Shown: piece after piece, positions 20,942 to 46,718 of the stretch
Numbering within the stretch: position 1 is the stretch's first letter
How the letters are laid out: each line of letters begins with the position of its first letter
Assembly (NCBI RefSeq): GCF_900184685.1
Contig: NZ_FXXL01000007.1
Span: forward strand, 806,001-870,000
Direction: 5' to 3'
Origin: Butyricimonas sp. Marseille-P3923
GTDB taxonomy: Bacteria; Bacteroidota; Bacteroidia; Bacteroidales; Marinifilaceae
Length of the DNA: 64,000 nt
Made by a program: the position numbers and the translations under genes
Notes under the pieces: model-generated
Told to the model about the DNA's origin: nothing
Database searches by the model: none
What the model saw: only the letters and a program-made list of their open reading frames with translations

Positions 20942-21472
20942 TTAATTGTTTCTCTCTATCTTTTCCAGAAAAGAACCCGGGATATAAGACGTAGCTATTG
21001 ATGCCACCCCCTCCAGGCGGATCACCACCCGCTTGTGACCTCGCAAACGCACCAATTCCCCCTCCAATCCTAGTAACGGTCCTTTGATCACTCGGACCCT
21101 ATCTCCCCGCTTGAGGTCTTTGTTCAATATCTCAATGCCGGCAGGCGAAAAATCCAACAGGAACATGAAGTCCTCCATTTGCTTGTCAGGAACGATCAAG
21201 GAACGACGCCCTTCTATATCTTTCAAGTAAACGATATTCAATGAATGTTCATTAATCAAGGAGAAACTCGTCACCTTGTCCGTACGGATAAAAATCATAC
21301 CGTGAATCAAAAGTACCCGAATGGTCCTCCGCCCAAGCGGTGTATCCCGTACTTGCTCCTCACGCGGGAGAAAGTTTTCGATCCCCAGTTCGTCCAGTTT
21401 TTTCTTAATAAATAATTCCTGGTTTACTCGCGTGTAAGCGACATACCAGTGTATTTTCTTTTCCCTAATCAT
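20942..21472 (-). CDS. upxY: UpxY-family NusG-like transcription antiterminator
   Basis: 176 aa. The N-terminal NGN domain reads IHWYVAYTRVNQELFIKKKLDELGIENFLPREEQVRD and includes VRVLLIHGMIFIRTDK. The C-terminal KOW domain is LKRGDRVRVIKGPLLGLEGELVRLRGHKRVVIRLEGVASIATSYIP. UpxY proteins load onto RNA polymerase in the leader of their own capsule operon and prevent premature termination. It is the first gene of the locus. Upstream is a 580-base region without genes that contains a promoter facing the other way, so how this gene is transcribed in the current arrangement is unclear. Confidence 0.94.
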   Translation of the reverse strand: MIREKKIHWYVAYTRVNQELFIKKKLDELGIENFLPREEQVRDTPLGRRTIRVLLIHGMIFIRTDKVTSFSLINEHSLNIVYLKDIEGRRSLIVPDKQMEDFMFLLDFSPAGIEILNKDLKRGDRVRVIKGPLLGLEGELVRLRGHKRVVIRLEGVASIATSYIPGSFLEKIERNN

Positions 21473-21673: not shown

Positions 21674-21693
21674 AAACCATCGATTAATAATAC
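21674..21693. repeat. Inverton-type 20-mer in the capsule leader
   Basis: AAACCATCGATTAATAATAC matches 18 of 20 positions of the perfect inverted repeat AAACCAACGATTAATAACAC that flanks the candidate invertible promoter at 35973-36137. The best inverted partner I can see nearby, at about 21818-21837, matches only 11 of 20. This copy may be half of a decayed or very divergent pair. Confidence 0.5.
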
Positions 21694-21771
21694 GACCAAA
21701 AAGAACGCTTGCGAATAATCGCCAAAAAACTAAATATCTAGTTGCGAGAATAAAAAAACCAATCAAAAAAG

Positions 21772-21801
21772 TTTGCGGAAAATAAAAATGATGTATATTT
21801 G
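21772..21801 (+). promoter_or_regulatory. Bacteroidetes-type promoter pointing away from the capsule locus
   Basis: TTTG at 21772-21775 and TATATTTG at 21794-21801 are separated by 18 bases and match the Bacteroidetes housekeeping -33/-7 elements. It reads rightward from about 21808, yet no plus-strand gene lies downstream, only the 3' end of the MATE gene on the other strand. It could make a short RNA ending near the palindrome at 21953, or it could be a capsule promoter in the OFF orientation. Confidence 0.6.
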
Positions 21802-21952
21802 CACTGCATTAAACGATCATTTATTAATTCATAAATCAATTAATGAAATAACAAATTATCAAATAGATACAACGACTTCTTGTAAACATTTGAATGATCA
21901 TTGCACAATCATTGCCTAACCACAAAAATCCTGCATATACACATCATAAATA

Positions 21953-35343: not shown

Positions 35344-35808
35344 CTACTTTTTAGAAATCAACAACCAAGCATCTGCGAATTCCGGGTATTGCTCACGAAT
35401 CCGCAACAATTCAGCCCGAGCGGGAGCCTCCTCGTCAAATCCGGCGATACTCACCCGACTCATTCCGGCTTCGTTCCGCATAATGATACTGGTATATCCC
35501 ATTCCGTTCAGTTTATTCCGCAAATTGATAGCGTTATTTTGATCTCCAAAACTTCCCACTATCACGTTATAACGTTTCAAAACATCCCCGTGCGTCATGG
35601 TTACCTTCTCCTCTTTCGAAACAACCGGTTTCGTGTTCTCTTTCTTGGTGGTCGTAGTTTGGGTTGTGGCTTGCACATCCTCTTTCACAACAACATTTTC
35701 AGTTTCCTCCTCCTCGAAAGGTGGTGCGTACACACGTTTGTTCGTACCGCAACTGACAGTTATAAATGCCAGTAATATTACAGATACAATAATTTTCATT
35801 TTTCCCAA
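35344..35808 (-). CDS. SPOR-domain lipoprotein
   Basis: 154 aa. The lipoprotein signal ends in ITVSC (Cys20). A Glu/Thr-rich linker (EEEETENVVVKEDVQATTQTTTTKKENTKP) leads to a C-terminal SPOR domain, YNVIVGSFGDQNNAINLRNKLNGMGYTSIIMRNEAGMSRVSIAGFDEEAPARAELLRIREQYPEFADAWLL. SPOR domains bind peptidoglycan stripped of stem peptides, mainly at the division site. It is a single-gene unit with a -7 element TAATTTTG at 35847-35854. In the present orientation the invertible segment promoter upstream would also read toward it. Confidence 0.93.
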   Translation of the reverse strand: MGKMKIIVSVILLAFITVSCGTNKRVYAPPFEEEETENVVVKEDVQATTQTTTTKKENTKPVVSKEEKVTMTHGDVLKRYNVIVGSFGDQNNAINLRNKLNGMGYTSIIMRNEAGMSRVSIAGFDEEAPARAELLRIREQYPEFADAWLLISKK

Positions 35809-35972
35809 TTTTAAATGTTATCCAATTTTTTCTGTCTTTGAAAAAACAAAATTAATGATAATAACAACACTCCGATACATTTTTGAAATATTTTTCTATT
35901 CTCCGCCCTCAAACCTTCATGAGTATCGCTAATCAAATAAAGTATAATTTCTTTATACCCAAAAGTTTCAAA

Positions 35973-36137
35973 AAACCAACGATTAATAACACTACAAATA
36001 TAAAAGATATCTGGAAACTTTTACTTAAAATTATTTTTTATCTAATATTTTTATTCACAAGCAAGAACGCCTAAATATCTTAATGATTTTGTTATCATAA
36101 AAGAATCAAGAAGATAGGTGTTATTAATCGTTGGTTT
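35973..36137. repeat. Candidate invertible promoter segment (inverton)
   Basis: A perfect 20-bp inverted repeat: AAACCAACGATTAATAACAC at 35973-35992 and its exact reverse complement at 36118-36137. They enclose 125 bp. Inside, three bases from the left repeat, is TATATTTG on the minus strand (35995-36002), a full match to the -7 element, although no TTTG is seen at the -33 position. It points away from the sigma gene, whose ATG is 18 bases beyond the right repeat. Inversion would place the element just ahead of that gene, with transcription starting about 30 bases before the ATG. In this assembly the switch is therefore OFF for the sigma factor. Confidence 0.75.
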
Positions 36138-36154
36138 AAAGATACGGCATTTGT

Positions 36155-36703
36155 ATGAGAGAGGAGTTCAATATCAACACTTTAGATCTAAATAATGATA
36201 AAGTATTTCATTATTTATACACCAAATATGCCACTACTTTGCGCTATTTTGCTGCAAAATACATCGAAGATGATACGATTATTGAAGACGTAATTCAAGA
36301 TGCCTTTCTCAATCTCTGGGAAAAACGCCAAGAATTCAAAACAGAAAATACCATAAAAGCATACCTGTACAAAATCGTGCGTAGTTTCTCGGTTGACACC
36401 ATACGCCGCAGAAATATAGCCAACAGGTATGCAGAACGTATCATCCGTGAAGAAGAAGATTACGATTTCTTTCTAGAGAATATTATAGAATCCGAAGTTT
36501 TCCAGATGATTCAAACGGCATTCAATCAACTCTCCCCTGCTTGTCGTGAAGTCTATCAATTAAGCCTTCAAGGAAAATCACACGAGGAAATCTCCCATTT
36601 ACTCAATATCTCCACCAACACGATAAAAAAACACAAAAACAACGCCAACCATTACATGCGAGAACAACTGAAGCACATATTATCTATATTATTATACATT
36701 TGA
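36155..36703 (+). CDS. ECF sigma factor (Bacteroidetes FecI-like family)
   Basis: 182 aa. Sigma region 2 reads VFHYLYTKYATTLRYFAAKYIEDDTIIEDVIQDAFLNLWEKRQEFKTENTIKAYLYKIVRSFSVDTIRRR. Region 4 is IQTAFNQLSPACREVYQLSLQGKSHEEISHLLNISTNTIKKHKNNANHYMREQL. This group usually sits next to a fecR anti-sigma gene and a susC/susD pair, and fires when the TonB receptor senses its ligand. Here it stands alone on the plus strand at the far end of such a locus; FecR is 8.7 kb away. The 20-bp repeat of the candidate inverton ends 17 bases before its ATG, and no promoter faces it in the current arrangement. Confidence 0.93.
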   Translation: MREEFNINTLDLNNDKVFHYLYTKYATTLRYFAAKYIEDDTIIEDVIQDAFLNLWEKRQEFKTENTIKAYLYKIVRSFSVDTIRRRNIANRYAERIIREEEDYDFFLENIIESEVFQMIQTAFNQLSPACREVYQLSLQGKSHEEISHLLNISTNTIKKHKNNANHYMREQLKHILSILLYI

Positions 36704-36852: not shown

Positions 36853-37572
36853 TTATATCTGTTTCACCAACATTTCAATCTCCTCCAAACTCGGGTTCTT
36901 TTCCAGCACCGCCCCATCCGGTGAAATCAAATACAATGTCGGGATAAATTCCACCTTATAATCGTCGCTCGTGTCGCTACCATTAATCTCTTTGTCAACG
37001 AGCAACTGCCGCCACAAGGGTTTATCCTCCTCAATGGCTTTCAGCCACTGGTCTTTCTTTTTATCACAAGAAATCCCGACCACTTCCACACCTAACTCTT
37101 GTAATCGAGGGTACTCCTTTTTCAACACTTTGGCTTTTGCCCGGCAGGGGGCACACCAAGAAGCCCAAAAGTCCACCAACAGGTATTTTCCCTTGTAGTC
37201 CGATAAAGCCACGATATTTCCTTTCACGTCCGGCAATTTAAAATCCGGGGCTTGCCCTGTCAATTGTTTACTTTCCAACTCCTTGTATTTTTTCATGATT
37301 TCTTCCTTATCCTCGGATTCAGGCACCGTCCCCATCACCTCGACAACTCGTTTAAACACTTTAAACTCCTGTTCAATCTTCCACATATTCTCCCGCACCA
37401 GCATCACGGCGATATTCGTTCCCTCGAACTCCTTAACAGCGTCTACAAACAAATCGTTTCCTTTCCGCCACAACAACTCGTTCTCTCTCATCACCAATTG
37501 CGTATCCTCTTCATTCTTAGCATCCCGATATTTTTGCTGCAAGAGTTGTATCTCCAGCATATTACTATCCAA
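36853..37572 (-). pseudogene. TlpA-like thioredoxin domain, 3' half of a frameshifted gene
   Basis: The frame runs 239 aa from a TTG with no ribosome-binding site. It carries helices 1-105 (LLQQKYRDAKNEEDTQLVMREN) and then a TlpA/ResA-type thioredoxin: QAPDFKLPDVKGNIVALSDYKGKYLLVDFWASWCAPCRAKAKVLKKEY, with active site W-C-A-P-C. Codons upstream of the TTG continue in the same frame as NPRTGQSRLSEHLLKLDSNM, which joins naturally to the DUF4369 half encoded at 37575. One lost base in an A/T run near 37623-37633 accounts for the break. The intact gene would encode a periplasmic lipoprotein disulfide reductase, as often found beside susC/susD pairs. Confidence 0.75.
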
Positions 37573-37574
37573 CT

Positions 37575-37931
37575 TTAATAAATGTTCAGACAGACGGGAC
37601 TGTCCCGTTCTTGGATTCTTTGAAAATATATTTCATGTTCTCCCCGCTGTTCCCAATAATATTCCCCGTTTTCGGGATAAAAAGGAATAGCTTGTCCCCG
37701 CTCTCCTATTTTCAGATACAATACCTGATCCGTATCCTCGCCTTCGATTTTGAAGCTCCGGTCTTCCGTCACTACACGACGGGCTAACGTGTCCGCTCCA
37801 CGCCCGTCACGGGTGAGAAGCAACACCTCTTTCCCGATACTTGCTTCGGGCAACTTTCCACTCAATGTATAATTCGGGGAAGTACAAGCTACCCCCAACA
37901 TGCTCAACAAGCCAAAACATATAATTCTCAT
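37575..37931 (-). pseudogene. DUF4369 lipoprotein domain, 5' half of the frameshifted gene
   Basis: From the ATG at 37931 the protein starts MRIICFGLLSMLGVAC, a lipoprotein signal. A DUF4369-type domain follows: YTLSGKLPEASIGKEVLLLTRDGRGADTLARRVVTEDRSFKIEGEDTDQVLYLKIG. After EHEIYF the frame changes into out-of-frame residues and stops 17 codons later. The other frame continues as SKNPRTGQSRLSEHLLKLDSN into the TlpA half. A -1 slip at the TTTT run (37623-37626) would also restore the frame, but no clear stimulatory structure is seen. A sequencing error, a real mutation and phase variation in the run all remain possible. Confidence 0.72.
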
Positions 37932-38015
37932 GGCACAATTATTAGAAATTAAAGGGGATATCACACGTTCCCATGAATATCCCCCACCAACATAGTTACT
38001 TACGAATTTATTTTA

Positions 38016-39623
38016 TCAAAAAGATCTCGGAAAATAGTTTAAAGTTTTATCGGACATTTTAGGAGAAACATATTGCATTTTCACTACCTTTCCATCCCCT
38101 TCAAAAACGTACTTCGGTTTCCCGTAGGCTTTTCCACCCAACACCTCGTAAAGATATACTTTATATTTGCCGGTTTTATGAGTAGCTATTACCAAATAAT
38201 CAAAATTATGCTCTTTATCGTCCGTCCACGTCCAATAACGATTACTTACATAAGTGATTTCTTCCCCTATCGCGAAATCCTGCAGTTGTAGTTCTTCTTC
38301 CGTGTTTAACTCTGTATCATACATGTATAACTTATTGCTATTAACAAAATAGATAACCTTCGCCGTTAATTCATTGGAAGCATACAACGTGGCAGTATTC
38401 AACTTGGAGTCCGAAGCTATTTCCGTTACTTTTTTAATCGGATTATAGGTGGTGGGATTATCGTCATAATCCAACGCCATACTATACAAATAATGTTTCC
38501 CGGCAACATCCGCATCTTCAAAGAGAGCGAACCCGGCATCGACATTCCCTACATAATTCCGGACAAAAGCTTTTAATTTATGCTTGATCCCGTTAGGAAC
38601 ATACTTTGCTTCCTCTTCGCTATCTTTTGGTTTATTCGCTAAAGCTTTCAAACCACCATTATAATCCAAGCAAAGAAATCTGTCTTTCAACTCATCAAAA
38701 TAGAAATAATAGGCTCCCGTAGACACACTGCCATTCTTATTCGGTTTCGAGTCTTCTTCATCCACCATAGCCGGAAACCCAAATTTCCCTGTACCTAATA
38801 ATTGCTGGGTAGCTAGCTGTGCCGAGAAATAGGCACCTTGATCAGATATATACCCGACGCCATTCACATTCCGCCACACGTAATAGGGTTTTTCTTCCGG
38901 GACCTCTCCATTATGAAACATCGTGTTATGCGTGTAAATCGTACTCATATCCTCTATATTCATTATCCGTACATCATTATCCGTACAAATCGTCAAAGCT
39001 TTGGTAATAACATATTCTCCGGTTGACTCGTCAAGAAAGCAATACACCGGATCAATGCCCAAACTAACCGGACTTGCAGGGAGAGCTTCCCCATCCTTTT
39101 TCTGTAAGATGTCGGTAATTTTACTATTGTCCCACGTGTGTAAATCAATGTCCGTCGAATTACCCATATCTTTAAGTAAATAAAAACCTTCCGAGAACGT
39201 GGTAATTACCGACAACGACATCACGTGATAGACATCCACCCCATTTCCCTTATTCGTGATCCGAAGAGTCAAGTCATAATAACCTTGCTTCAGGTTTACC
39301 GGAAAATCCAACACGCGTTCATAACCAATCGTATCCAACTTGAGCTCTATTATATCCGATGTTGTACCAGAACCTTTCGTCAGATTCAATGTCCACAAAT
39401 ACTCGAACTCATCACCGGCACGGTCAGAAGTAACGGTAGGTTCTATATGCAACACATCTTGAAAAGCAATCTTGGAATAGCTCTCTTCCAAACCGGTCGT
39501 CGTAACCTCACTAATTTCGACATAATCGTAATTCCCTTTATCCTCGTAACATGATGAAGCAAATACGACAAGTACCCAAAGGGTTAATATATAGCTGATT
39601 TTCTTTTTCATAACCGTATTCAT
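38016..39623 (-). CDS. PKD-like family lipoprotein of a SusC/SusD locus
   Basis: About 535 aa. The lipoprotein signal MKKKISYILTLWVLVVFASSC gives a surface or periplasmic lipoprotein. The start is M6 or M10 of the open frame; the first ATG would overlap the upstream gene. EISEVTTTGLEESYSKIAFQDVLHIEPTVTSDRAGDEFEYLWTL is the PKD-like N-terminal domain. The rest (from about 150) is a beta-rich region with repeated 'YLL..MALDYD' type strands that resembles a propeller. This family is found downstream of SusD and DUF4843 proteins in Bacteroidales and may bind ligand at the surface. No catalytic motif is visible. Confidence 0.82.
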   Translation of the reverse strand: MNTVMKKKISYILTLWVLVVFASSCYEDKGNYDYVEISEVTTTGLEESYSKIAFQDVLHIEPTVTSDRAGDEFEYLWTLNLTKGSGTTSDIIELKLDTIGYERVLDFPVNLKQGYYDLTLRITNKGNGVDVYHVMSLSVITTFSEGFYLLKDMGNSTDIDLHTWDNSKITDILQKKDGEALPASPVSLGIDPVYCFLDESTGEYVITKALTICTDNDVRIMNIEDMSTIYTHNTMFHNGEVPEEKPYYVWRNVNGVGYISDQGAYFSAQLATQQLLGTGKFGFPAMVDEEDSKPNKNGSVSTGAYYFYFDELKDRFLCLDYNGGLKALANKPKDSEEEAKYVPNGIKHKLKAFVRNYVGNVDAGFALFEDADVAGKHYLYSMALDYDDNPTTYNPIKKVTEIASDSKLNTATLYASNELTAKVIYFVNSNKLYMYDTELNTEEELQLQDFAIGEEITYVSNRYWTWTDDKEHNFDYLVIATHKTGKYKVYLYEVLGGKAYGKPKYVFEGDGKVVKMQYVSPKMSDKTLNYFPRSF

Positions 39624-39627
39624 TTTA

Positions 39628-40443
39628 TTACATTTCATATCGAGAGAATCTAACTAACGTTCCTTCCGTTTCTCCGGGTTTCGGGGCTTCACGCAACGGC
39701 CCCAAGCCATCCTCTGCCCGACGGGCATTCTCCTCCGCCAACTTTCTGGTAAAGAAATAGTACCAATAATCAGTCAACCCCATATCCACCTTACTGGGAT
39801 CCCCTACCAGCGAGTAAAAGAAATCGTCGTTCACCTTGATTCCCCTGTCGGCAGTGGCATCAATCATGAACTGATGTTTCACTTTTCCATATTTCCCGGC
39901 AAAGTAATAAGTTGCATAAAAATTCCAATATTGAGGTTGAGTCAATAAATCCGTGATGGTAATCACCTTCTCTTGCAATGTTGGATATCCCGGTTCAAAA
40001 TTCTCATTACTACCAATTTTGATTCTCAACGTCACCTCTTTATCTTTCAAGGAAGGATCGCGTTTCAGAATAACCGGAACACGAGCTTCGTTCTTCCCGG
40101 CAGGAATCACGTAAAGCCCTTCCACTAGTGAATTATCAAACGCTATGTAATGCACATCCGCTTCGGCTTGATTTTCCCCCGTGCTCACTTGTTCCAAAAC
40201 GAATTTACGCTCCTGATCCGCGATGTAGCCCATCGTCGTCACTTCCAGCCACACGGTATCAAACACTTTTGTTTCCGGGTCGTAAACAAAAGTACGGGGA
40301 ATCAATGTATCCGATTTCGTGTTTGCCGCGTACACGAAATTCAGTCGATTCGTGCTCTCCTTGTACACATCCACCTCGTCCTCGCAAGCGAACAAGACGA
40401 AGACAGGCAATAACAACATGGTATATTTCATCAATTTTTTCAT
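39628..40443 (-). CDS. DUF4843 lipoprotein
   Basis: 271 aa. The lipoprotein signal ends in LFACEDE (Cys20). NRLNFVYAANTKSDTLIPRTFVYDPETKVFDTVWLEVTTMGYIADQERKFVLEQ and the following AGKNEARVPVILKRDPSLKDKEVTLRIKIGSNENFEPG match the DUF4843 family, which always accompanies SusC/SusD pairs. Its function is unknown, but the acidic CEDE after the lipid Cys fits the Bacteroidetes surface-export signal. It overlaps no neighbour and lies 6 bases after susD, so it is co-transcribed. Confidence 0.88.
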   Translation of the reverse strand: MKKLMKYTMLLLPVFVLFACEDEVDVYKESTNRLNFVYAANTKSDTLIPRTFVYDPETKVFDTVWLEVTTMGYIADQERKFVLEQVSTGENQAEADVHYIAFDNSLVEGLYVIPAGKNEARVPVILKRDPSLKDKEVTLRIKIGSNENFEPGYPTLQEKVITITDLLTQPQYWNFYATYYFAGKYGKVKHQFMIDATADRGIKVNDDFFYSLVGDPSKVDMGLTDYWYYFFTRKLAEENARRAEDGLGPLREAPKPGETEGTLVRFSRYEM

Positions 40444-40449
40444 AACTCT

Positions 40450-41940
40450 CTATTTTTGATTAGCATTATATTCCGTGGTAGGAAGAGGCGCAACATAATC
40501 CTGTTCCCCGACTTCCCGATCGGTTTTCCACAACATATTCTTTGTTCCCAGACGTTTGTAAGTATAAAACATTTGTCCTTCGGCGAAAAACTCCCGGCGA
40601 TACTCGCGAACAATCTCTATCATCACCTGTTCCTCTGTCAACGGGTTAGCCGCTACGCCTCTCGCCCTCATGTACTCGGTGTAAAGGAGATTCGCATCGG
40701 ATAAAGAAGTTGCTGATTCTATGGCGATCAAATACATTTCCGACAAGCGAATCAAAGGAATAACTTGCTTTTGAGAAGCCAGCTCCCCGATATCCGTGTT
40801 ATCGTCAATCGTCGGTTGATTGTACTTCCGGGGAGTCGGTTTTATATTTCCTTGATTATCAGGAATCGTATTCCAAACTTCAGTTCTATTATTAATAGAA
40901 GTCGATTGACCGGCAAAAATATCTTGCGTGAACTGCTTGTCCGTCACATATAACCTTGAAGGATTGAAATCGCGAAATAATTCTGTAACATTCTCTTCCA
41001 ACTCGTAATTACTCAAAGCAAGAATACATTCGGAAGGCAATGCGTAATTTTTCTTATTGATATCCGCGGTACCCGCTAACGTCAACACCTTATTGCCCTT
41101 CTTATCCACTGCATTAATCACTTCCATGGCAGCCGCATAAGCCTTCCCCTTATCCCCCGTGTACATGTACAATCTCGCCTTCATCGCTTTCATGGCATAA
41201 TAATTAAAACGGAAACGCCTGTATCCTAAAAAGTCATCATCTAAAGTCACGTCATACTCTTTCGTGTTGGAAAAATTATCCAACTCCTCGTAAGTGTATT
41301 CAAACAACGGATCCCTATCCTTGAACAAAGCTTCCGCCGCATCTATATCCTGAACGATAAGATTCACGAAATCCGAAAACGCGTAATACGGAATCGCTTC
41401 CGTCGAAACGGTTTTAGCGTAAGGTAAAGAAACCTGTTTCGTCGCGTTTTGAGGTATTTGTCCGAACAAACGCAAAATCTCCATGTGGCAAAAAGCCCGT
41501 ATAGCCAACGCTTCCCCTTCCACCAAAGCACGTACATCCTCGTTCACGATAACCTCTTTCTTCTCCGGTATATTTTTCAATATAATATTTGCCTGCGCTA
41601 TAATATTATACAATTCCCCGTAAACAGCCGAGAAAAAATTTTTCGGGTAGTCTTCCTCGTAATTGAAATCCTTAAGTTTTCTTTCATTCCTGTAATTACT
41701 TTCACTCCATGTCCAATGCTGAGCCATAAACTCAATATCAGTCACCGTCAATCGTTTCCCGTACAAGTTCACGGAGTTCATCTTAATGTAACAAGCCGTC
41801 AGGGCATTCTTAAAACCGTTGGGGGAATCAAACATCTCTTCCTCGTCCCTCTCCATTTCCGGTTTCACATCCAGCCAATCATTGCACGAGGACAACGACC
41901 AAGCCAGAAAGAGCGTTACGTATATCAATATATTTCTCAT
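40450..41940 (-). CDS. SusD/RagB-type surface lipoprotein
   Basis: 496 aa. The signal ends in SLSSCNDWLDVKPE (Cys19). TPR-like helices follow as in SusD: VRALVEGEALAIRAFCHMEILRLFGQIPQNATKQVSLPYAKTVS, FNYYAMKAMKARLYMYTGDKGKAYAAAMEVINAV and the C-terminal QVIPLIRLSEMYLIAIESATSLSDANLLYTEYMRARG. The family forms the lid of the SusC barrel and delivers ligand. Without glycoside hydrolases nearby, the ligand is not obviously a glycan; peptides or an iron complex are possible. Confidence 0.95.
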   Translation of the reverse strand: MRNILIYVTLFLAWSLSSCNDWLDVKPEMERDEEEMFDSPNGFKNALTACYIKMNSVNLYGKRLTVTDIEFMAQHWTWSESNYRNERKLKDFNYEEDYPKNFFSAVYGELYNIIAQANIILKNIPEKKEVIVNEDVRALVEGEALAIRAFCHMEILRLFGQIPQNATKQVSLPYAKTVSTEAIPYYAFSDFVNLIVQDIDAAEALFKDRDPLFEYTYEELDNFSNTKEYDVTLDDDFLGYRRFRFNYYAMKAMKARLYMYTGDKGKAYAAAMEVINAVDKKGNKVLTLAGTADINKKNYALPSECILALSNYELEENVTELFRDFNPSRLYVTDKQFTQDIFAGQSTSINNRTEVWNTIPDNQGNIKPTPRKYNQPTIDDNTDIGELASQKQVIPLIRLSEMYLIAIESATSLSDANLLYTEYMRARGVAANPLTEEQVMIEIVREYRREFFAEGQMFYTYKRLGTKNMLWKTDREVGEQDYVAPLPTTEYNANQK

Positions 41941-41957
41941 GATAATAAAACTTTAAA

Positions 41958-44900
41958 TTAGAACATTAATGAAAGAGTCAGCGCCACCCGTCTCGCGAAC
42001 GGATAAGAAGTACCCCGTTCCCGTTTGATGGAAGATATGTAAAATATATCCGACATATTGGCACCGATATTTATAGTTTCAATACTCCATTTTTTTAGCA
42101 AATAATCCGAATGCCAACGATACTGCACGCTCGCACTCTGGAATTGGAACACTTTATCGTCCATCACGAATCTGGACGACGATCTGGTCTTGGATGAGCC
42201 GTATCCTTTAAACTCCTTGATATCACCGGCTTTTTGCCATCTGTTCTTGTAAACCCTCTTGTCCACGTTATTTCTATCTATCGTGGCATCGGTTACTTCC
42301 ACCTTGCTCAACAAAGTTTCATTATACTGTTGCCCACCCCATTGAAAAGCGAAAGAAAGGTTTACAGACAAATCTTTCCAAGAGAATAAAGAACTCAGGT
42401 TCCCGCGATACTTCGGCTCACTAACCCCGAAATAACGTTTATCGGAAGGATTCCATTTCCCCGTGATGTTTCCGTTTTTATCCAGAAATATCTCAGCTCC
42501 CGTGCTCGGGTCAATCCCCAAAGAAGGTACAGCCCAAATCGAATTTTTGGAATATCCCTCGTACAACAACTGATTCACATCCGTATCCTGTGCCTTGTAA
42601 AGCTCCGTTTGCTGTTTTATCGCGGCGGACAGTTTCGTGATTTCATCTTTATTATACGCTAATTTCGTTGTCACCGACCATATGATCTCCCGTTGGGTGT
42701 TCCTCATCAAATAACCGCTCAACATCACCTCGTAACCGACATTCTTCACCTCGCCCACGTTATCCACGTATGAACTGAACCCGTTCGCCAGAGGTAAATC
42801 CATCTGTGAAAGCAAGTTTGACGTCTTCTTGTTATACATGTCAAACGAAGCGGAAACCCTGTTATCGAAAAGCCCCACTTCAACACCCCCATTGATTTGC
42901 TTCGTTACCTGCCATTTCAATTTTTCGTTACCAAGTCCCATCAATTCCGCACCATTCCAAATAATATACCTTTTCCCGGTATAGTAATTAAACGTGGACA
43001 ACGCCTGATAAGACGAGAATTGTTGAGAACCGGTTTCCCCGTACGAGCCGCGCACCCTAAGGGTATTCACCACCCGATGATCCCGAAGGAATGATTCGTT
43101 ATGCACGTTCCACCCGATTCCGGCACTCCAGAAAGGAGCAAACTTATTTTTAGTACCAAACAAAGAAGAACCGTCCACACGATAAGAGAAATCGGCAAAA
43201 TAACGATTGTCATAAATATAATTCACGTTCCCGGTAAAACCAACACGCCGGGAAAGTTCTTCCGTTCCCTTCGGCACCCCATTCTTTTCATATTGTAGCG
43301 CGTTAGACAAGAAATCAAGTTTTTCATCAGAGAACCCTTCCACGGTAAACTTGTAGAAATGATTTTTCCGCTGTGAAATAGAATAGTCAAATCCGGCGTA
43401 CACTTGATGCTTTTCCGCGAAAACCTTAGAATAACTAAGCGTCGCGTTTCCATCTATATTTATATCCTCCCCGGTCCCGTAAACATATTCACCTTTCCGG
43501 AAATAGCTGTCACTACCGTTATACGTGTCAAAGCTAGTATGGTCAGCCGGAAGATAATAGTCCGAAGTATTCGTTTGCTTTTGTAATCCCAGTTGAGCCC
43601 TTAATTTTAACGCGTCGGCAATATTCCATTCGATCGAGAAATTATTCGTGATCGTGGTATACTTCTTCTCGTCAATGGTATTCAAATTAGCGTTATACAA
43701 CGGATTAGGTATATTAAACCCTTTCTCTTTATATCTTTTAATGTATTGCCCGTTTTCATCTTTCGTCCTGTAATAAGGATTCATGTTCACGTAATTGTAA
43801 AACGTTCCGTATTTACTTTCCACCCCTTTATTGATATCAACAATGGTCTGATTCTTGAAAATAACATTTTTCAAGGTATAAGAAAGCGTCACGCTACCGC
43901 TGAAAGTGTTTCTTTCGGAAGCCTTCATCGCTCCTTGAATCGTGTTATAGGATAAATTAGCCCCCCAGCGGAAAGCATCACCACCTCCTTCAAGCCGTAA
44001 ATTATATTTTTGACCGATTCCGGTTCTCACGGGTTCGCTCAACCAATAAGTATCCACGCCGCGTAACACATCCGAGTATAGCGTGTTGTACAACTCTTTC
44101 AGCTTCCTGTCACGCGTAACATCCTTCTCGTCGTCATACAATCCCACGATTCGTTCCAGTTCCAATTTATCCCGGGCATTCAGCATATCATAAGAAGACA
44201 AATCCGGTATCTCGATATTAATCCCCCCTTGGGCATAAATTTTTAATTTTCCCCCTTGAGGAGCTTTTGTCGTTACCACGATGACACCGTTTGCCCCTCT
44301 GGAGCCGTAAATCGCCGTGGCTGAGGCATCCTTCAGAATATTAATACTTTCTATTTCCTCGTCGTTGAAATCCATTAATTTCTCCAATGATATCTCGAAG
44401 CCATCCATTATAACTAAGGGGGCGTTCAACTGCTTGGATGCTTGTTGATTCAATTCCTTCACGCTCATCGGCAAAGACGAATTCCCCCGGATATTGATTT
44501 CAGGTACCACGTTCGGGTTACTTCCCAACGCGTTATTCATCACCACGTTAATCGACGGGTCTATATTCCTTAACGTAGCGAGAAGATTCTGTCCCTTGTA
44601 CATCTTCAATTCCTTGGCAGACACGGACGTCACGGCACCCGTGTAACTTTCCTTCGCCTTCGTGAAGATTCCCGTAACCACCACGTCATCCAAAGTTTCG
44701 GAATCCTCTTCCATTTTCACGTCAATCTTTGTCTTGTCGGCGACAGCAATCTCCCGTGTCTTCATACCCACGAACGAGAATGACAACACTTGCTCTCCCT
44801 CCGCCGGAACATTCAATTTATAATTCCCGTCCGCATCTGTTGCCGTTCCCAGAGCCGTTCCTTTAATCATGATCGTCACGCCGGGCAAAACCTCTCCTCT

Positions 44901-45284
44901 CTCATCCGTAACCTTTCCCGTGACGGTCTTCATTTTTTGATTCACTTCCTTGGGACTCTCTTTCCTGATAATGATCGTTTTCCCGTTAATCTCGTAAGTC
45001 AGTCCCGTGCCTCTCAAACAATCGGTCAGCACGGCATCAATAGCGGCATCTTTATAAGATACATCACGCCTTTTAAAAGCTTCCAGATTCACGTCCCGGT
45101 ACACAAAATCATAGTCGGAAAGTTTCCTGATTTCATTAATAATCTCTTTAAGTGTTGCGTTTTTCAGACTGAAAGTCAAACTTTTGTCCTGCGAATACGC
45201 GTTCAGACTAATTTGAGTGGTAAACACCAAGAAAAGGAGGAATAAAAACCGCCTCTTCCCTGCGACATTAAAAATTTTCTTCAT
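41958..45284 (-). CDS. SusC/RagA-type TonB-dependent transporter with signalling domain
   Basis: 1108 aa from the ATG at 45284, where MKKIFNVAGKRRFLFLLFLVFTTQISLNAYSQ is a clear signal peptide. An STN domain follows (SLTFSLKNATLKEIINEIRKLSDYDFVYRDV to GLTYEINGKTIIIRK). The carboxypeptidase-like domain is VTGKVTDERGEVLPGVTIMIKGTALGTATDADGNYKLNVP. The plug has ESINILKDASATAIYGSRGANGVIVVTTK, and the barrel ends in RVALTLSLMF. The STN domain is the part that contacts FecR, so this transporter also reports ligand binding. It lies between fecR and susD with hairpins in the 90-base gap to fecR. Confidence 0.96.
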   Translation of the reverse strand: MKKIFNVAGKRRFLFLLFLVFTTQISLNAYSQDKSLTFSLKNATLKEIINEIRKLSDYDFVYRDVNLEAFKRRDVSYKDAAIDAVLTDCLRGTGLTYEINGKTIIIRKESPKEVNQKMKTVTGKVTDERGEVLPGVTIMIKGTALGTATDADGNYKLNVPAEGEQVLSFSFVGMKTREIAVADKTKIDVKMEEDSETLDDVVVTGIFTKAKESYTGAVTSVSAKELKMYKGQNLLATLRNIDPSINVVMNNALGSNPNVVPEINIRGNSSLPMSVKELNQQASKQLNAPLVIMDGFEISLEKLMDFNDEEIESINILKDASATAIYGSRGANGVIVVTTKAPQGGKLKIYAQGGINIEIPDLSSYDMLNARDKLELERIVGLYDDEKDVTRDRKLKELYNTLYSDVLRGVDTYWLSEPVRTGIGQKYNLRLEGGGDAFRWGANLSYNTIQGAMKASERNTFSGSVTLSYTLKNVIFKNQTIVDINKGVESKYGTFYNYVNMNPYYRTKDENGQYIKRYKEKGFNIPNPLYNANLNTIDEKKYTTITNNFSIEWNIADALKLRAQLGLQKQTNTSDYYLPADHTSFDTYNGSDSYFRKGEYVYGTGEDINIDGNATLSYSKVFAEKHQVYAGFDYSISQRKNHFYKFTVEGFSDEKLDFLSNALQYEKNGVPKGTEELSRRVGFTGNVNYIYDNRYFADFSYRVDGSSLFGTKNKFAPFWSAGIGWNVHNESFLRDHRVVNTLRVRGSYGETGSQQFSSYQALSTFNYYTGKRYIIWNGAELMGLGNEKLKWQVTKQINGGVEVGLFDNRVSASFDMYNKKTSNLLSQMDLPLANGFSSYVDNVGEVKNVGYEVMLSGYLMRNTQREIIWSVTTKLAYNKDEITKLSAAIKQQTELYKAQDTDVNQLLYEGYSKNSIWAVPSLGIDPSTGAEIFLDKNGNITGKWNPSDKRYFGVSEPKYRGNLSSLFSWKDLSVNLSFAFQWGGQQYNETLLSKVEVTDATIDRNNVDKRVYKNRWQKAGDIKEFKGYGSSKTRSSSRFVMDDKVFQFQSASVQYRWHSDYLLKKWSIETINIGANMSDIFYISSIKRERGTSYPFARRVALTLSLMF

Positions 45285-45311
45285 AACTTTGTATTTAGAA
45301 TTCAACAATTC

Positions 45312-45372: not shown

Positions 45373-46557
45373 TTATTTTACAAGCACCGTTTTTCCTTTT
45401 ATTTCAAACTTTACATCCCCCGTTTTCTCTATCAACTCCAAAACCCGAGTAAACACCTCGTGTTTTTTCATGTTCACCGAGAATTGGTATGAACGTGCTT
45501 CCTCCCGACTATAAAAGACATCAAACGCGTACCATCTCCCCAAATCATTCAGAATCTTCTCTAGCGGGCAATTATCATACATCAATCGTCCGTCTTTCCA
45601 CGCCAGATACAGATCAATATCTACATCCTCCACCGATAGCACGGACTTCGACTTATCAAACCGGGCTTGTTCATTCGGGACTAGATTCACCTTATGTTCC
45701 CCGGCACTCACGAGTACCTTGCCACTTTCCAGCGTGGTTTGTATCTCTTTTTCATCCTCGTATGCCCTTACCCCGAAAGTAGTTCCCAACACGAGTACCT
45801 CCATTTGTTGTGCCTCCACGATAAATGGCTTTTTCTCATCTCTCTTTACTTGGAAATAAGCCTCTCCCGCCAACAATACCTTACGTTTATCTCCCTTGAA
45901 ATTTACCGGATAAGTCAACCGGGAATCTGCGTTCAGGTACACGACCGTGCTATCCGACAACGTAAGTACATACTCTCCCCCTCTCGGAATCACCAAAGTA
46001 TGATAAATCTCCGCGGTATCCCGTTCTAAAACATTCCCGTAAGTCAACGATTCATCGCTCACCGACAAAGATTCATTGGTCTTGACCAATTCATGGCGTG
46101 AATTTTCGTTTTCCAAATCTACCTTGCTGCCATCCGGCAATATCAGAATAGCCCGGGAACCCGGTTGTGTAAAGTCATTATTCGCCAATGTAACCTCGTT
46201 CCCCGAACCGGACTTATCCCCCGCGTAATATAAAGCAAGCCCTCCGACCGACAACAGCAATATAATGGCACATGCCACCCTGTAAAACCACTTCACCCGT
46301 TTTACAGGTTCCATCCCACGCCGTTTCTTCATTTCTTCTTGTAAAATCTGCCAATCACGTGCATTCTCTTCTTCCGTCTTCACGAAACGGGATAAACTCT
46401 TCTCGATATGTTCCCCCGACAACATACGTTGAAAAAGAGCCTCGCGCCGGGAGGATTCCGCCCTCCATTCGGTCAATTCTTTTTCCTGTATCTCATCCGC
46501 TAATCCTCGGATGTGCAGGAATATTAATCGTGCAATATGTTCTTCTCTCTTCAGCAT
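45373..46557 (-). CDS. FecR-type anti-sigma factor
   Basis: 394 aa. The N-terminal cytoplasmic part (ARLIFLHIRGLADEIQEKELTEWRAES) binds the sigma factor. A membrane helix spans about 91-112 (FYRVACAIILLLSVGGLALYYAG). The periplasmic FecR domain has TLVIPRGGEYVLTLSDSTVVYLNADSRLTYPVNFKGDKRKVLLAGEAYFQVKRDEKKPFIVEAQQMEVLVLGTTFGVRAYEDE. The C-terminal DUF4974-type domain is CPLEKILNDLGRWYAFDVFYS. It holds the ECF sigma inactive until the STN domain of SusC signals. It is the first gene of the minus-strand operon, but its sigma gene is not adjacent. Confidence 0.95.
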   Translation of the reverse strand: MLKREEHIARLIFLHIRGLADEIQEKELTEWRAESSRREALFQRMLSGEHIEKSLSRFVKTEEENARDWQILQEEMKKRRGMEPVKRVKWFYRVACAIILLLSVGGLALYYAGDKSGSGNEVTLANNDFTQPGSRAILILPDGSKVDLENENSRHELVKTNESLSVSDESLTYGNVLERDTAEIYHTLVIPRGGEYVLTLSDSTVVYLNADSRLTYPVNFKGDKRKVLLAGEAYFQVKRDEKKPFIVEAQQMEVLVLGTTFGVRAYEDEKEIQTTLESGKVLVSAGEHKVNLVPNEQARFDKSKSVLSVEDVDIDLYLAWKDGRLMYDNCPLEKILNDLGRWYAFDVFYSREEARSYQFSVNMKKHEVFTRVLELIEKTGDVKFEIKGKTVLVK

Positions 46558-46718
46558 ATTATTTTCGCTTTTATAACTAAAGCGATTTCATACGCGTTTG
46601 GTGTAATAAAAAAAGTGACTTTTTTCAAAGTTTTTTTATTAACCACAAATTATCAAGTGTTTATAAATCCCACTACTATCCTATTCCTACCTTCACGGGT
46701 GAGTTTTGCCAGACTTTT

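Follow-up and report, generated by a model that had tools for sequence, protein, structure and literature searches.

A probably invertible promoter-like element before an ECF sigma factor gene of Butyricimonas and its proposed role in gating a FecR-SusC-SusD operon

The locus and its inverted repeat

We begin by considering the genes around the element. In the window (the whole stretch of 64,000 nucleotides analysed here), the gene of an ECF sigma factor, the window's only match to TIGR02985 (129.1 bits against a cut-off of 126.4), is convergent with a row of genes that runs leftward from 46557 to 36853 in the order FecR, SusC, SusD, DUF4843, PKD, DUF4369 and TlpA (Table 1). From their order and spacing we infer that these genes form one operon, and the sigma gene stands at its far end, not upstream of fecR. 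By domain matches, a FecR and a SusC with an STN domain are present near the ECF sigma gene. These, together with SusD, are the parts known from trans-envelope regulation by SusC, FecR and an ECF sigma factor, in which the usual order is the sigma gene and then fecR in the same direction. The same parts are found here, but the layout is unlike the usual one: the sigma gene is convergent with the operon and lies behind a putative invertible promoter.

Table 1. Coordinates of the genes and sequence elements of the locus in the window
Feature	Position	Strand	Basis or remark
SPOR-domain protein, other side of switch	35344..35808	-	own TAATTTTG box at 35847-35854
Left arm, candidate invertase site	35973..35992	+	4 other genomes have similar arms at this place
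Predicted strand-exchange stretch, arm positions 6-18	35978..35990	+	partner 36120-36132
Invertible inner segment, 125 bp	35993..36117	.	counterpart reversed in G003 and G005
TATATTTG, resembles Bacteroidetes primary-sigma -7 box	35995..36002	-	faces away from sigma gene (OFF)
Right arm of inverted repeat	36118..36137	-	sequence complementarity to left arm
ECF sigma factor, 182 aa, switched gene (proposed)	36155..36703	+	Sigma70_r2, r4_2; TIGR02985
TlpA/thioredoxin-like protein, last gene of operon	36853..37572	-	AhpC-TSA, Thioredoxin_8
DUF4369-like protein	37575..37964	-	match just below Pfam cut-off
PKD-like protein	38016..39638	-	PF16407
DUF4843 protein	39628..40443	-	domain match
SusD-type lipoprotein	40450..41940	-	domain match
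SusC-type TonB-dependent receptor, N-terminal STN domain	41958..45308	-	TIGR04056; STN PF07660
FecR anti-sigma/sensor, first gene of convergent operon	45373..46557	-	FecR, FecR_C
TATTACACCAAA, proximal element, candidate ECF target promoter of fecR-susCD	46597..46608	-	motif conservation
GAAAAAAGT, distal element of candidate fecR-susCD promoter	46618..46626	-	motif conservation

Between the SPOR gene and the sigma gene lies an inverted repeat, whose arms are complementary at 20 of 20 positions and enclose 125 bp, with 17 bases between the right arm and the sigma ATG; the sequence bears out the earlier note, which had described the repeat in these terms. The note had also placed the segment's only TAnnTTTG match on the strand facing away from the sigma gene, and a scan of both strands from 35973 to 36137 finds this one match, TATATTTG, and no other. 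According to the excerpted text of PMC7366714, the consensus for the primary sigma factor of the Bacteroidetes is TAnnTTTG at -7 and TTTG near -33. When the segment is flipped in silico, the box moves to 36108-36115, next to the right arm, and the gap from box to ATG becomes 39 bases. If transcription starts about 7 bases downstream of the box, the start would fall about 30 bases before the ATG, which is the geometry that had been proposed. The weakness of the -33 element, given at the time as a caution, is real: TTTG is absent from the 40 bases preceding the box in the flipped state, and for this reason the box is termed promoter-like rather than a proven promoter.

Sites of the same type and the recombinases

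What kind of site do the arms resemble? They fit an imperfect palindrome centred on AACGWWCGTT. The available portion of PMC8375218 gives ARACGTTCGTN as the Mpi consensus and GTTCGTTTAA as the repeat of B. intestinalis. Against the Mpi consensus the window's arms have 2 mismatches in 10 positions, whereas the left arm of one relative (G005) matches it exactly when read on the other strand. The window's 20-mer has a single match among genome contigs, in a Bacteroidetes MAG record, and none in IMG/VR, while each of the 135 plasmid records with a match is below 60% identity. A strict pattern for paired sites, which misses the window's own site, was run on 56 genomes of the family and has matches in six, five of them in the same genus. 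A single-arm pattern (up to 3 mismatches) fits 71 places and its reversed control 56; for a relaxed pattern the counts are 233 and 158. Since single-arm matches thus tell little, only opposed pairs are used.

Paired sites of the Mpi type recur in the window's own genome (G000), some before ECF sigma genes and some beside capsule regulators of the NusG/UpxY type. A second such pair in the window, at 21674-21822, adjoins an UpxY antiterminator gene (20942-21472, minus strand) and contains TATATTTG at 21794-21801 (plus strand); the box faces away from upxY, so this capsule-type locus looks OFF.

The next question is how often such a pair precedes an ECF sigma gene. Among 20 scanned proteins neighbouring paired sites, 11 are sigma factors, and a further size-picked neighbour (L113) is a histidine-kinase-type ATPase; these neighbours were picked by hand, many by size, and the tally is therefore taken over all the sigma genes of the genome instead. 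There are 135 of these in the 5.3 Mb of G000, counted as TIGR02985 matches at E <= 1e-6 (150 of the 157 first-look candidates were scored), and 84 of them exceed the family's cut-off. For two Bacteroides species, PMC12632263 gives 50 and 43 ECF sigma factors by another counting method. When the DNA upstream of each of the 135 genes is scanned for strict Mpi-type pairs, ten genes have one, as against 3 pairs in all from 20 shuffled sets of 135 (mean 0.15 per set); this strict test omits two sigma genes beside looser pairs (L107, L119). Seven of the ten sites contain a TAnnTTTG box 9-11 bases inside one arm's core, which faces away from the sigma gene in six (the window's included) and towards it in one. 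Among the other three, the box of two sites is further in and points away from the gene, and the third has no box.

An unbiased repeat scan upstream of the same 135 genes finds 18 genes with a repeat in which 15 or more of 18 positions match, and none in one shuffled set, several of the 18 being of other than Mpi type; at a threshold of 14, no repeat precedes 92 of the genes, compared with 114 when shuffled. Other classes are seen as well. At L153, L139 and L134 (G000), inverted repeats around GGTAATANTACC or a similar sequence precede ECF sigma genes; their arms, 86-95 bp apart, do not fit the Mpi type and are possibly the sites of another recombinase. A further class resembling TAAAGTYCATAA occurs at L125 and L187 (G000) and at L035:4416-4517 (G003), twice before ECF sigma genes. 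Separately, a Mpi-type pair at L100:9847-9997 (G000 C1:266946-267096) lies between a 350-aa gene, putatively FecR by its position only, and a SusC-type gene, so the SusC-type gene may itself have an invertible promoter.

We turn our attention to the enzyme. Two genes of G000, on C1 near 598 kb and 2011 kb, code for short serine recombinases (200 and 202 aa). In NCBIfam both match the Mpi family NF009949 best, with E-values of 3.8e-81 and 6.2e-78 and scores 0.4 and 10.9 bits below the cut-off of 272. Serine recombinases resembling this family are found in all six genomes of the genus (2-3 matches each at E <= 1e-20), with a score above the cut-off in one, G002. G000 also has 16 Phage_integrase matches, and the assignment to Mpi therefore rests on the form of the site. 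These matches leave some room for a tyrosine recombinase, rather than a serine invertase of the Mpi family, as the enzyme that flips the element, and a tyrosine recombinase does flip other promoters in B. fragilis (PMC4747536, in excerpt). We consider this alternative unlikely, because the arms form the AACGWWCGTT palindrome near the Mpi consensus (PMC8375218, likewise in excerpt) and because none of the 16 matches falls within the window, the nearest being at C1:910765.

Orientation of the segment across the genus

Searching 59 genomes, the window's own among them, with 901 bp of the locus gives the sigma gene and its surroundings at E < 1e-100 in G000, G001, G003, G004 and G005, all of one genus; the sigma gene with the repeat is present in five of the six genomes of that genus, the exception being G002. 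The inverted repeat is at the same place in all five, with perfect stretches of 13-21 bp (20 bp in the window, 21 in G003, 18 in G004 and 13 in G001 and G005). We compare the inner segments after orienting each locus by its sigma gene. The segment has the window's orientation (OFF) in G000, G001 and G004 and is reversed (ON) in G003 and G005, a comparison that rests on one assembly per species. The search of related genomes for a reversed inner segment, which the earlier note had suggested as a check, is thus positive in two of the five genomes that have the locus. In all ten pairwise comparisons the expected orientation scored higher than any of 200 shuffles; for G001 and G003 the unexpected orientation was above the shuffle maximum as well (28 against 21.5), with the expected one scoring 80. 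By flank identity these two genomes are the closest and G000 is the furthest. Their flanks are 96.4% identical on the sigma side and 97.2% on the left side, yet their segments are opposite. With flank identity as the guide to kinship, a parsimony count suggests that the orientation has changed at least two times.

Aligned in the ON direction, the segment keeps TATATTTG, and with it TAnnTTTG at -7, in four of the five genomes (G000, G001, G004, G005), while G003 reads TATATTTT. In G003 (L005/L030) the arms reach inward to the 21-bp perfect stretch, and it may be this lengthening that replaced the final base of the -7 box.

Where in the arms would the strands be exchanged? In the aligned sequences of G001, G003 and G005, arm base 5 is G on the left and C on the right in either orientation, and the bases from arm position 19 inward travel with the segment. 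Because base 5 stays with the flank and the bases from 19 onward move, the exchange should fall at arm positions 6-18. In addition, the two arms of each genome share one letter state (AACGATTAATAA in G000, G001 and G003; AACGTTTAATAA in G004 and G005), as expected if the arms recombine with each other.

It is conceivable that the segment inverted on a few occasions during evolution and is now fixed in each species, with the repeats as relics. The single assembly per species and the changed box of G003 would suit this explanation, as would the other loci, where none of four comparisons between species gives an opposite orientation. Two of these, scored without shuffle control, have the same orientation (the second sigma locus in G000 and G003, 36.0 against 16.0; L075 and L077, 63.0 against 21.0), and two, scored in the same way, are unreadable (G000 and G001, 20.5 against 17.0; G003 and G001, 28.0 against 29.5). 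Relic arms, however, would drift apart, whereas those of the window are identical at 20 of 20 positions and those of G003 and G004 remain perfect over 21 and 18 bp, if over 13 in G001 and G005. The explanation also needs the two or more changes of orientation counted by parsimony, and recombinases resembling the Mpi family persist in all six genomes. We give it a small chance.

A similarly small chance goes to the SPOR gene as the main output of the switch, or to both genes being switched reciprocally, in which case the state in the window would be ON for SPOR. In the window the box does face the SPOR gene, at a distance of about 190 bp. Against this, the SPOR gene has a TAATTTTG box of its own, and the gene and its upstream stretch are kept in G002 (79% over 96 bp), where the repeat switch was not found beside the SPOR gene. 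The other strict sites, too, precede ECF sigma genes, while their left neighbours differ at the sites inspected.

A chance repeat is ruled out, since no perfect inverted repeat in the window with arms 60-600 bp apart is longer than these 20 bp and the longest comparable one in 60 dinucleotide shuffles of it (500-bp blocks) is 15 bp, and a terminator or hairpin is ruled out by arms 125 bases apart and by the inversion of the segment between species.

A proposed switch of a nutrient-uptake system

The next question is "does the sigma factor act on the operon that it faces?" The two co-occur in five of the six genomes of the genus (G000, G001, G003, G004 and G005); in G001, G003 and G004 several kb lie between the sigma gene and the final gene of the operon. 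The operon of G004 is more diverged (SusC 43%, SusD 27%), and its search gave no match for the genes of the PKD and DUF4843 proteins. The SPOR gene of G002 directly adjoins a DPP4-like gene, the one located after the operon in G000, and neither the sigma gene nor the operon is found at the syntenic place (tblastn, 19 kb).

Upstream of fecR in the convergent operon lies the motif GAAAAAAGT-N9-TATTACACCAAA. The proximal element TATTACACCAAA stands before fecR in all nine aligned loci, which are five orthologues and four paralogous modules whose sigma genes are 54-57% identical to the window's sigma; the distal element varies, being GAAAAAAGG in the second G000 module and TAAAAAAAGT in G004. The exact TATTACACCAAA 12-mer occurs at 30 places in the six genomes, against 11 for the reversed control. 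Half of the 30 places are 36-42 bases before an ORF of 388-394 aa with a FecR-like start, and 14 of these 15 ORFs are FecR by Pfam or tblastn (L257 is judged by its start only); the remaining 15 places have other genes or none downstream. A distal element of the AAAAAAG type passed a scripted test at 11 of the 15 fecR places and failed at 4. One of the 15 is in G002, a genome without this sigma at the syntenic place, which indicates that the motif serves a wider class. From its sequence, GAAAAAAGT-N9-TATTACACCAAA is a candidate for the target promoter of this class of sigma factors. The earlier suggestion that the sigma factor could control the SusC/SusD locus through FecR draws support from the co-occurrence in five of six genomes and from this ECF-like motif before fecR.

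We hold with good confidence that the element is a Mpi-type invertible promoter, which would subject the ECF sigma factor to phase variation and gate a nutrient-uptake operon that has its own FecR sensor. The bacterium can very likely flip the segment and so switch its sigma regulator, and the neighbouring nutrient-uptake genes are probably switched along with it. In the proposed mechanism, a recombinase of the Mpi family, encoded in trans, would exchange strands within the 20-bp arms and flip the 125-bp segment. In the window's orientation the TATATTTG box is on the left, and the sigma gene would lack this promoter (OFF); with the box on the right, a primary-sigma promoter would transcribe the ECF sigma gene from a start in or next to the right arm (ON). 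FecR would then hold the sigma factor until ligand is signalled by the SusC receptor through its STN domain, and the released sigma would drive the fecR-susC-susD operon from the GAAAAAAGT-N9-TATTACACCAAA promoter. Because the flip would supply the sigma factor and the ligand would free it from FecR, expression would need both the ON phase and the ligand, an AND logic. As a step predicted from sequence, the flip by an invertase is strongly supported by the species comparison, and the steps after it are supported by the gene anatomy.

Several known systems can be set beside this one. The capsule promoters that Mpi controls in B. fragilis and those flanked by GTTCGTTTAA in B. intestinalis (PMC8375218, citing Coyne 2003) are, in the excerpts, like it in having a promoter segment below 200 bp between related inverted repeats, with serine invertase homologues encoded elsewhere and many sites per genome. 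Capsule-type sites exist in G000 too, such as the one at 21674-21822. They are unlike it in their target, since they stand at the start of polysaccharide loci and the element here would switch an ECF sigma gene. The excerpts of PMC4747536 describe the IVp-I and IVp-II promoters of B. fragilis, whose inversions govern polysaccharide and outer-membrane protein loci; their enzyme is the tyrosine recombinase BF2766/Tsr19. The same excerpts list an ECF sigma gene, BF3407, among 11 genes raised in ON/ON cells, and disruption of BF3407 left the expression of BF3397 unchanged. The SusC/SusD inversions of B. fragilis (Nakayama-Imaohji 2009, via the portions used of PMC4747536 and PMC12632263) likewise vary SusC/SusD systems, but they are described as multiple inversions of the shufflon type at the clusters and not at the promoter of a regulator. 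In the survey of PMC10939037, as far as its excerpts go, the neighbours of invertible regions in gut Bacteroidales span 'from regulatory genes' to surface molecules, so that inversions beside regulators are already listed; the word 'sigma' is absent from the main text in the version consulted. The flg and cmr switches of C. difficile are likewise inversions upstream of genes that include a regulator, and one flip changes a regulon (PMC5386303 and PMC6837544, in part); inversion of the flg switch is carried out by RecV, a tyrosine recombinase (PMC5903667, in part). These two differ in belonging to another phylum and in having no FecR or SusC. The flgB operon of C. difficile contains the sigma gene sigD.

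Invertible promoters, Mpi and the phase variation of SusC/SusD are already known, and the promoters of this kind known from gut Bacteroidales act mostly on surface polysaccharides and outer-membrane proteins. Within the portions of the open-licence literature that were available, we found no invertible promoter before any Bacteroidales ECF sigma factor, and no such switch on an ECF sigma gene that accompanies a FecR-SusCD operon. We lean, by a little, towards the view that this genus has extended phase variation to regulation, where one or two invertases of the Mpi family would invert the promoters before about ten ECF sigma genes, beside capsule switches with related sites, so that clonal subsets differ in which FecR-SusCD systems can respond. 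If the sigma factor is switched, this would be bet-hedging one level up: the flip would decide whether a nutrient is sensed and used, and FecR would decide when. If about ten sigma factors are so controlled (10 of 135 by the strict test), one assembly would show just one of many states, and cells of the same strain could differ in their use of nutrients without mutation.
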